Part shown: positions 12,589 to 35,590 of the stretch, piece by piece
Layout: each line of letters starts with the position of its first letter
Position numbering within the stretch: the stretch's first letter is position 1
Source: Planctomycetota bacterium
Lineage (GTDB): Bacteria > Planctomycetota > Brocadiia > SM23-32
DNA length: 36,727 nt
Assembly: GCA_030628375.1 (NCBI GenBank)
Contig: DAOVRD010000003.1
Location: 1 to 36,727 of the forward strand
Direction: 5' to 3'
Translations under genes and position numbers: made by a program
The notes under the pieces: model-generated
The model's input: only the letters and a program-made list of their open reading frames with translations
Databases searched by the model: none
Told to the model about the DNA's origin: nothing

Positions 12589-12759
12589 CGTACATGTCCT
12601 TCCAATCGAATAGAACGAAACAATCAGAAACAGCCCCCTGACCCGTCACCGTTCCCAGGCTAACACGCCACAGCCTGCCGTGCAAGGAACGCGTGCGCCC
12701 CCTCCGACGGCCCTCCGCGGCCTACCCGCTGAGGACCGCGCGGTTCGTGCGCGCGTGCC

Positions 12760-33608: not shown

Positions 33609-33682
33609 TGAGGATTGGTGTAACGGTAACACACCTGACTCTGGATCAGGCATTCCAGGTTCGAATCCTGGATCCTCAGCCA
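33609..33682 (+). tRNA. tRNA-Gln(CTG)
   Basis: Acceptor TGAGGAT/ATCCTCA, D stem GTGT/ACAC, anticodon arm CCTGA-CTCTGGA-TCAGG (CTG), T arm CCAGG-TTCGAATC-CTGG, encoded GCCA end. Confidence 0.95.
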
Positions 33683-33696
33683 CATTTGTGACCCGT

Positions 33697-33774
33697 GGCC
33701 CCATCGTCTAGCCCGGTCCAGGACCTCGGACTCTCATTCCGGAAACAGGGGTTCGAATCCCCTTGGGGCTACCA
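33697..33774 (+). tRNA. tRNA-Glu(CTC)
   Basis: Acceptor GGCCCCA/TGGGGCT, anticodon arm TCGGA-CTCTCAT-TCCGG (CTC), T arm AGGGG-TTCGAAT-CCCCT, encoded ACCA. Confidence 0.93.
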
Positions 33775-33908
33775 GCCTTCGCCCCTCGGTCCGCCGTACG
33801 GCGGACCCGGGGCTTCGGCCGGCAGGCCAGCTATGCCTGCACGATGAGTGCTCAACCTTGTAAGAACACAAGGGCGAAGGCTGGGCGCCGAAGCTGGCGC
33901 GCCAGCTT
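33773..33908. repeat. Palindrome cluster between tRNA-Glu and the GIY-YIG gene
   Basis: 12-bp IR CAGCCTTCGCCC (33773-33784)/GGGCGAAGGCTG (33872-33883). Hairpin GCCCCtcGGTCCGCC-GTAC-GGCGGACCcGGGGC (33781-33813). 18-bp perfect palindrome AAGCTGGCGCGCCAGCTT (33891-33908). Confidence 0.9.
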
Positions 33909-33928
33909 GGCTCGATGCGAAGGCGGCC

Positions 33929-34171
33929 ATGCGTTACGTCTACCTATTGCGTAGTCGTTCCCATCCTAAGCAGACCTATGTTGGTTCCACAGCCGACCTG
34001 GATGGGCGCCTTCAAGCCCACAACGAAGGCAAGTCGCCGCACACCGCGAAGCACTGCCCGTGGCGACTCGTCGTCGCTGTGGCATTCAGCAACGAGGAAA
34101 AAGCCCTGCGATTCGAGCATTACCTGAAGAGCGGATCTGGCCGAGCCTTCGCCTTGCGGCACTTCTGGTAA
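33929..34171 (+). CDS. Small GIY-YIG nuclease-family protein
   Basis: MRYVYLLRSRSHPKQTYVGSTADLDGRLQAHNEGKSPHTAKHCPWRLVVAVAFSNEEKALRFEHYLKSGSGRAFALRHFW. YVYLL/TYVGST core, conserved R, H, E positions and GSGRAFALRHFW tail. Confidence 0.9.
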   Translation: MRYVYLLRSRSHPKQTYVGSTADLDGRLQAHNEGKSPHTAKHCPWRLVVAVAFSNEEKALRFEHYLKSGSGRAFALRHFW

Positions 34172-34405: not shown

Positions 34406-35278
34406 ATGCCTAAGCGTAAGTTACGGTGCATTGGTGCCACTCTAGTTGACATAACCATCTTTCATCCCGCAGGCCGCCTGGTCCTGCTAGCCGCAGCCCT
34501 CTTGGTCTGCGTGGGCGTCATCCTCGGTATCTTGCTTGTTCGCTCTACCTACATGCAGCGAGAGCATGATCAACAGCCTTCTCCGGCTGCCGCCGAGCCG
34601 CTGGCGGCCTTTCCCCCTGCGTGGGCTACCGGAACAGACTATGGAGACCAATTGGGACACACAATTGACCGAGCCGGGCTTCACATTACAAGAAGCTATC
34701 CGATGGATCCAAACGGAGCGTGTAGTTTCTCAGCTAACAACCGGGTTTTGTTCCGCGTGCCTGACCCGGCTACATCTGCTCAGGTTTCAGCGTTCTTCAT
34801 TTCCGGGCTGGGCGAAGGCGAGACGGTCGCTGATGTTATTGAGATATGGTTTGCCACATGCGCCATCTTGGCCAGTTATATAGAACCATCGCACCAAGCC
34901 GAGTTTATGGGCTGGTTGCAAGAGGGATTCGAGAGCTTTGAGTTAACAAAGGTCACAGGCCTGCGATCTCAGGAGCGCTGGTTTGGCTCTCGGGCCCTGC
35001 GTGTTGAACATCGCTATTCAGAATTCTTGGGCTATACGATTTCTGTTGAGCTTAACGACAGGTTTCCCCCTCTCCATGACCTCAACGGGGGTGAGACTGC
35101 CAAGAGCTGGGCGGACATGCGGCTGGGCTTGACATTGGAAGAGGTTGAGGCCTTTGCGGGGCCAGGCCGCCTTCAATCAAGTATGGGCGAGAGCCGCCAG
35201 TACCATTTTGGAGAAGGTTACGCACTCGGATGGGTGACATTCATTAATGGCCGCGCTGAGACGTGGATGGCTCCCTAA
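34406..35278 (+). CDS. Hypothetical single-TM protein, C-terminus loosely SmpA/BamE-like
   Basis: MPKRKLRCIGATLVDITIFHPAGRLVLLAAALLVCVGVILGILLVRS (TM), then a soluble domain ending MRLGLTLEEVEAFAGPGRLQSSMGESRQYHFGEGYALGWVTFINGRAETWMAP. Start inferred; the ORF is open from 34190. Confidence 0.65.
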   Translation: MPKRKLRCIGATLVDITIFHPAGRLVLLAAALLVCVGVILGILLVRSTYMQREHDQQPSPAAAEPLAAFPPAWATGTDYGDQLGHTIDRAGLHITRSYPMDPNGACSFSANNRVLFRVPDPATSAQVSAFFISGLGEGETVADVIEIWFATCAILASYIEPSHQAEFMGWLQEGFESFELTKVTGLRSQERWFGSRALRVEHRYSEFLGYTISVELNDRFPPLHDLNGGETAKSWADMRLGLTLEEVEAFAGPGRLQSSMGESRQYHFGEGYALGWVTFINGRAETWMAP

Positions 35279-35433: not shown

Positions 35434-35480
35434 AGACTCTCATTCCAAAAACACCGGTTCAAATCCGGTTGGGGCTACCA
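35434..35480 (+). pseudogene. tRNA-Glu 3'-half fragment (anticodon loop to CCA)
   Basis: AGACTCTCATTCCAAAAACACCGGTTCAAATCCGGTTGGGGCTACCA aligns to the 3' half of tRNA-Glu 33727-33774. The T arm ACCGG-TTCAAAT-CCGGT is intact, but no D arm is visible upstream. Confidence 0.85.
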
Positions 35481-35483
35481 CAC

Positions 35484-35520
35484 AGGGCGCAAGGCCTTGC
35501 ACTGGAACGCTTTGCGCCCT
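35484..35520. terminator. Inverted repeat AGGGCGCAA...TTGCGCCCT just after the tRNA fragment
   Basis: 9-bp perfect arms (35484-35492 / 35512-35520) followed by TCTTCTC. Confidence 0.5.
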
Positions 35521-35590
35521 TCTTCTCATCCTGCGGGGCCGGTGCCGACCAGTGCGGACGCAGCCGGGCCGGGTGGCACCTCTCAGTCTC

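Follow-up and report, generated by a model that had tools for sequence, protein, structure and literature searches.

Genes for tRNAs and tmRNA are classic docking sites for mobile DNA, a role credited to integrases. Islands inserted by tyrosine integrases take the 3′ end of the RNA gene as target, keep the RNA intact and carry a copy of its 3′ end at the far side. The element described here, found in a 36,727-nucleotide stretch of DNA from a Planctomycetota bacterium (the window), has the first two of these features; a second copy of the RNA 3′ end is present in the window and at a minority of loci and is absent from most. Unlike integrase islands, its units measure ~330-470 bp, lack an integrase, open with covarying palindromes anchored in the CCA of the target, and share one nuclease gene throughout.

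Three further kinds of mobile DNA invite comparison. Free-standing GIY-YIG homing endonuclease genes (I-TevI/I-BmoI type) likewise have a nuclease as sole gene, a fixed site in a conserved gene, turnover by decay and reinvasion, and purifying selection while mobile. Unlike these, our element encodes a protein with no DNA-binding module beyond its 80-residue domain, Slx1/UPF0213-like rather than of the homing endonuclease group, and it has covarying palindromes that start from the CCA of many tRNA and tmRNA targets. With REP sequences and their associated tyrosine transposases (REP/RAYT) it shares palindromes linked to a nuclease gene beside them, a match between palindrome and protein types, and solo palindromes. 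It differs in its enzyme, which is a hydrolytic GIY-YIG nuclease and not an HUH/Y1 protein, in lacking a GTAG tag, and in being single-copy at a tRNA end, not dispersed, with gene and palindrome moving together; the GIY-YIG gene is its only gene, and a Y1/HUH transposase is absent from it. Like IS200/IS605 it has subterminal DNA hairpins, and the pairing of CCA in the target with TGG in the element is reminiscent of target recognition in that family; unlike IS200/IS605 it has neither TnpA nor TnpB and its target is tRNA-specific.

The protein shares fold and sequence group with the Slx1-cluster/UPF0213 nucleases. A 2006 survey of the GIY-YIG superfamily attributes mainly vertical inheritance to the prokaryotic Slx1-like proteins, in passages that make no mention of tRNA-gene neighbours (PMC1564403); unlike the proteins as described in those passages, the genes studied here appear mobile and bound to tRNAs. 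Within the open-access full-text literature searched, we found no description of the element. Since it lacks a hallmark of homing genes (a further DNA-binding domain), of REP/RAYT (dispersed copies and an HUH enzyme) and of integrase islands (room for an integrase, in its short units), we file it under none of them. By analogy, its pattern of invasion, decay and reinvasion recalls a homing gene, its palindrome partner recalls REP/RAYT, and its tRNA repeats recall integrase islands; it keeps to specific sites, more in the manner of a homing element than of REP/RAYT.

The tRNA-Glu locus and its nuclease

In the window, the element directly follows the second gene of a tRNA pair (Table 1). A preliminary description of this DNA had pointed to a 12-bp inverted repeat starting in the CCA, a GC hairpin inside it and an 18-bp palindrome shortly before the nuclease gene, and had judged their density unusual. 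All three structures are present: the inverted repeat (CAGCCTTCGCCC/GGGCGAAGGCTG) is exact and grows to 13 bp once C74 of the CCA is included (33772-33784/33872-33884), the GC hairpin lies within this CCA-anchored repeat (33783-33812), and the 18-bp palindrome (33891-33908), 20 bp ahead of the ATG, is perfect. The CCA-anchored stem exceeds chance expectation, scoring 13 where 30 shuffled sequences reached at most 8.3. In the general form of the module, C74-C75-A76-NNN pairs with NNN-TGG to form stem A, whose 3′ arm ends ~25 nt on, and stem B forms when the same 5′ arm pairs with another 3′ arm, 35-200 nt further down. The stem A 3′ arm and stem C of the window were read by comparison with the consensus of relatives.

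Table 1. Features of the element and its surroundings, in window positions.
Feature	Position	Strand	Remarks
tRNA-Gln	33609-33682		Upstream partner of tRNA-Glu in the tRNA pair
tRNA-Glu (CTC), occupied target	33697-33774	+	CCA (33772-33774) opens stems A and B
5′ arm common to stems A and B, CCAGCCTTCGCCC	33772-33784	+	First three bases are the CCA of the tRNA
GC palindrome, loop of stem A	33783-33797/33798-33812		15-nt arms, 87% complementary
Stem A 3′ arm, GGCCGG	33817-33822	+	One A.C mismatch against CCAGCC; conserved GGCAGGCCAG follows
Stem B 3′ arm, GGGCGAAGGCTGG	33872-33884	+	Pairs with the 5′ arm over 13 bp without mismatch
Stem C	33886-33925	+	CGCC (33886-33889) with GGCG (33922-33925); inner GAAGC/GCGAA, as in relatives
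Perfect palindrome in stem C, AAGCTGGCGCGCCAGCTT	33891-33908		18 bp; ends 20 bp upstream of the ATG
GIY-YIG nuclease gene	33929-34171	+	80 aa
ORF without Pfam match	34406-35278	+	Between the two tRNA-Glu 3′ ends
Displaced tRNA-Glu 3′ half	35435-35480	+	Anticodon arm to CCA; 46 nt, 85% identity to the intact gene, E=2e-11
Terminator-like hairpin, GGGCGCAAG..CTTTGCGCCC	35484-35526	+	Followed by pyrimidines

The span first given for the unit, 33773-34171, omits its right side. There, 1.7 kb downstream, lies the displaced 3′ half of tRNA-Glu, in which the T-stem differs from the intact gene yet still pairs. The ORF between the two tRNA-Glu 3′ ends is possibly a passenger, and the hairpin behind the displaced half stands where sister genomes have a terminator-like hairpin behind an intact tRNA-Glu. 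Elsewhere in the window, ARAGORN calls a 97-nt tRNA-Ser (gga) at 12596-12692 on the minus strand that falls below the gathering score of the Rfam tRNA model, possibly a false call.

The protein matches PF01541 over residues 2-70 (E=6e-14), the only Pfam family found, and 1zg2 by phmmer (E=9e-8); it has no NCBIfam match. AlphaFold2 models it as one confident domain (pLDDT 97), for which Foldseek returned At-HIGLE, UPF0213 BH0048 and Slx1 as the nearest solved folds, At-HIGLE and Slx1 being enzymes of branched DNA. Motif residues and fold both place it in the Slx1/UPF0213 group of the GIY-YIG superfamily. Residues Y17, R27 and H31 are invariant in 28 relatives, with Y5, N32, E63 and the tail KSGSGRAF nearly so. 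A separate C-terminal DNA-binding module (NUMOD and the like) is absent by both Pfam and the AlphaFold2 model. Purifying selection acts on the gene (median dN/dS 0.05-0.11), alongside broken and missing genes. Conservation of the GRAFA codons as a repeat of the palindrome GCCTTCGCC was considered and dropped, as AT-richer relatives change the codons and keep the peptide.

Layout and arm covariation across bacteria

From a scan that took a single genome for each GTDB species we obtained 80 relatives with 53-66% identity. Those with a named phylum span at least 11 NCBI phyla, including Pseudomonadota, Thermodesulfobacteriota, Myxococcota, Verrucomicrobiota, Acidobacteriota, Planctomycetota, Armatimonadota and Actinomycetota, among others. 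KSGSGRAF served as one of the search peptides, and the motif is therefore over-represented in this set. The relatives follow one order, in which a tRNA or tmRNA ending in CCA is succeeded by hairpins A, B and C and then by the GIY-YIG gene; the CCA is joined directly to GCCTTCGCC..TTCGGCTGGCAAGCC, then come GGCGAAGGCTG, CCGCCGAAGCC..GGCGAAGGCGG and the ATG. The CCA boundary is defined at 67 loci, some with the tRNA end recognised from its T-arm alone; 24 lie behind tmRNA and the others behind tRNAs for Ala, Ser, Gly, Glu, Pro, Gln, Arg, Asn and Tyr. Over the 500 bp ahead of the GIY-YIG gene, the density of tRNA/tmRNA genes reaches 1.44 per kb on its own strand and 0.02 per kb on the other; the remainder of these loci has 0.013 per kb.

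As an unselected check, a profile search of 246 genomes of the window's phylum gave 18 close homologues, with any match at E<=1e-6 in 55 of the genomes. Seventeen of the close homologues had enough upstream sequence, and 14 of these have a tRNA or tmRNA directly upstream on the same strand (13 ARAGORN calls and one T-arm..CCA motif); the other three are without an upstream tRNA. Downstream, none of the 17 has a tRNA or tmRNA. In the same phylum set, none of 14 UPF0213-like GIY-YIG genes, defined by a GP[FYW]..R motif and counted by eye, has one upstream. The four distinct GIY-YIG genes found in the window's genome each follow a tRNA (Glu, Pro, Met, Asn). The preliminary description had noted short GIY-YIG genes of this kind beside tRNAs in diverse bacteria, had suggested that palindromes and gene may form one unit, and had proposed comparing the DNA upstream of homologues. 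In that comparison most homologues keep both palindromes and tRNA neighbours, those of at least 11 phyla keep the layout, and the common layout, with palindrome type tracking protein type, supports the single unit.

The arms of the palindromes covary, a point that the preliminary description had wanted checked: both change jointly across loci, with compensatory pairs GCC/GGC, GAC/GTC, GCT/AGC, ACC/GGT and CGC/GCG, and long private arms do the same (for example CATTCGCCTACG/CGTAGGCGAATG). We judged covariation by counts of pair types in place of arm swaps between loci, which are uninformative because most arms have the consensus sequence. The 105 distinct arm pairs, which include related sequences and are not all independent, contain 16 G.T and 22 A.C mismatches, against 33 G.T and 4 A.C in the tRNA acceptor stems of the same loci (Fisher P = 2e-5). 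Since G.U is favoured in an RNA helix and G.T is here no commoner than A.C, the palindromes appear, on sequence grounds, to be maintained as DNA; an RNA structure, such as a processing signal or guide RNA, is disfavoured by the near equality of the two mismatches. A stem of at least 8 bp starting from C74/C75 is present at 62% of tRNAs with the gene downstream, against 14% of the other tRNAs of the genome.

At some loci the pairing runs further into the tRNA. The 3′ arm behind a tRNA-Pro (L245) also complements the bases ahead of the CCA (TGGTCGG for CCGACCA), as do those behind three tRNA-Gly genes (L034, L037 and L046; TGGAGC for GCTCCA), as if these arms were fitted to their particular tRNA. 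Palindromes that start from a CCA also occur without a GIY-YIG gene: CCACGCACCGC..GCGGTGCGTG behind a tRNA-Leu of the window's genome (L231), and the near-identical CCAGCCCGCC..GGCGGGCTGGTAGAGCAG behind two tRNA-Pro genes (L233, L017). All three are possible solo modules.

Turnover at single sites and the right side of the element

Within Bradyrhizobium, a single tRNA-Ala site holds a type-1 element (CCAGCC hairpin), a type-2 element (CCACGC..GCGTGG hairpin and MWYVY..KSHSGRAFA protein), broken genes or gene-less hairpins. Pairs of these loci with flanks 97-99% (upstream) and 89-95% (downstream) identical carry elements whose proteins share only 53-58% identity. Rhizobium likewise has both types at tRNA-Ala. 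Overall, the proteins of the two exchanged types are 53-61% identical, between flanks 89-99% identical. The protein tree requires one change of hairpin type although both genera have both types, which argues that the hairpin travels with the gene and not with the host. Where the two could be compared, palindrome type follows protein phylogeny, a relation whose absence would have told against the preliminary description. The family tree, built from 80 columns and with few forks resolved, implies at least 23 changes of adjoining RNA gene and likewise at least 23 changes of phylum.

The site also exists unoccupied. Three sister genomes of the same family (L329-L331) have the tRNA-Gln/tRNA-Glu pair at 90-92% identity without the element, and there ordinary flank begins directly behind the CCA; the insertion site is fixed, with occupied and unoccupied alleles. 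Genes are lost or decayed while the tRNA stays intact, and solo hairpins are found at L184, L199, L187, L191 and L139. In Bradyrhizobium no exact empty site was found, and the gene-less loci there all kept at least hairpin remnants.

In many Bradyrhizobium loci the native flank is back no more than ~30 bp past the stop codon, which reduces the unit there to hairpins, gene and little else. An exact second copy of a tRNA 3′ end lies downstream in 13 cases (12-26 nt), some not enclosing the GIY-YIG gene and most in subfamilies other than the window's; tRNA 5′ ends gave none. Eleven of the 13 repeats stop exactly at the tRNA terminus, and the other limit varies. The repeats lie 334-467 bp apart at six loci (L267, L319, L018, L275, L005, L006), units with room for the nuclease only and not for an integrase gene. 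Most close homologues have no second tRNA 3′ end within the flanking sequence examined, and a general target-site duplication was for that reason dropped for them. The right boundary of the element is not fixed to a single base.

Several loci depart from the usual arrangement. Like the window, L049 has extra sequence past the GIY-YIG gene. At L005 and L006 the gene appears to lie between hairpin A and the stem B 3′ arm and not behind hairpin C, which suggests that the palindrome module and the gene are open to rearrangement. A second hairpin module stands behind the gene at L182, L190, L097 and L049, leaving the gene between two module copies, and at L058, L073 and L076 a second GIY-YIG copy, whole or partial, adjoins the first. 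The window's genome and its relatives also contain extra tRNA T-arm copies interrupted at about nt 60/61 (L017, tRNA-Pro; L020 and L008, tRNA-Met; L018) by hairpins of ~20-35 nt that lie directly ahead of a copy of nt 61-76.

A candidate minimal mobile element and its alternatives

In our reading the locus is a minimal mobile element, site-specific for tRNA and tmRNA genes and composed of a noncoding palindrome module and the gene of a single-domain GIY-YIG nuclease; we put the probability of this reading at roughly 0.6. We infer hairpin cleavage, the use of host repair and a basis for target choice along the following lines. The nuclease would recognise branched DNA formed by extrusion of the CCA-anchored arms, as A and B hairpins or as a cruciform, and would make its cut at the tRNA 3′ end or close to it, whether in cis at the element, in trans at unoccupied ends, or both. 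Repair through the homology common to tRNA 3′ ends would copy the element in directly behind the CCA, so that the tRNA stays functional, and would sometimes leave a second tRNA 3′-end copy at the far side. Copies would spread, become fixed and decay to broken genes and solo hairpins, after which the site could be retaken. It is plausible that the protein acts directly on the palindromes; as hairpin and gene are adjacent, their co-inheritance alone is no proof that one recognises the other. Copies on plasmids or phages were not found by tblastn, nor did PADLOC or PHROGs return a match to a defence system or phage family.

The locus might instead be an ordinary tRNA-gene islet, with nuclease gene and palindromes as the cargo of a tyrosine integrase that was lost or acts in trans. 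The direct repeats of tRNA 3′ ends do look like att sites, the one in the window being 46 nt long and reaching into the anticodon arm, and the sequence past the gene in the window and L049 would suit such an islet. We consider it unlikely, because the 334-467 bp units between repeats hold no other gene of integrase length, most loci lack a second tRNA end, palindromes and GIY-YIG gene are the sole constant contents across phyla, and integrases do not explain covarying arms that start in the CCA. A retroelement-like route, in which the nuclease would nick the tRNA 3′ end and a host reverse transcriptase would copy the element's RNA there, is suggested by the 11 of 13 repeats with one end at the tRNA terminus and a variable other limit, as in target-primed insertion. 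GIY-YIG domains also serve Penelope-like retroelements. The short units between repeats encode no reverse transcriptase and the palindromes seem kept as DNA, not RNA, which leaves this route highly improbable.

A host role in tRNA/tmRNA expression, with the hairpins as terminators or 3′-processing signals and the nuclease trimming transcripts or repairing the locus, would account for the fixed position directly behind the RNA gene and for the strong purifying selection, and a fusion of an Slx1-like domain to a tRNA methyltransferase is reported for Erythrobacter in the 2006 survey (PMC1564403). It sits poorly with mismatches that show no G.U preference, patchy presence (55 of 246 genomes at E<=1e-6), gene loss or decay beside intact tRNAs and sister genomes without the element, and is in our view very unlikely. 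The preliminary description had suggested, on the model of REP/RAYT, that the nuclease might mobilise or maintain the palindromes that it recognises; in such a system it would mobilise dispersed palindrome copies in trans. Palindromes are indeed paired with a nuclease gene, hairpin type follows protein type and solo hairpins exist. The distribution speaks against dispersal: the 19 Rhizobium genomes with the type-2 palindrome have exactly one copy each, in every case at the 3′ end of tRNA-Ala, and the suggested search for orphan palindromes in the window's genome showed that exact copies of the palindrome start found elsewhere lie in unrelated sequence without a tRNA, and gave no extra exact tRNA-linked copy. 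The HUH transposase of that model is missing. A hydrolytic GIY-YIG nuclease, moreover, is not known to rejoin strands alone. Of the explanations weighed here, this one has the slightest chance of being right.

Our preferred reading, that of a minimal mobile element at tRNA ends, can be extended. More tentatively, and with odds that we set somewhat short of even, the element may represent a class of mobile DNA not described before and present in at least 11 bacterial phyla. A structure-specific Slx1-type GIY-YIG nuclease would recognise the palindromes anchored in the CCA and would move them, or copies of them, to the 3′ ends of tRNA and tmRNA genes; pairing of the tRNA end with the complementary arm of the element would help to select the target. 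If so, it would be among the smallest mobile DNA to encode its own enzyme, at roughly 330-470 bp, and a separate, minimal and very widespread parasite of tRNA ends for which one 80-residue nuclease and a palindrome suffice. It would account for the short 'GIY-YIG nuclease' genes beside tRNAs across bacteria and give a function to a protein group regarded as repair enzymes of vertical descent. The element offers a small system for studying DNA mobility driven by a structure-specific nuclease.

More distant GIY-YIG subfamilies are multi-copy, with 4-9 copies per genome (G198, G247, G282, G353 and G396), and are frequently found immediately before or behind tRNAs of many types (loci L258-L260, L273-L296, L302, L313 and L319); the link to tRNAs may be wider than the window's GIY-YIG subfamily.
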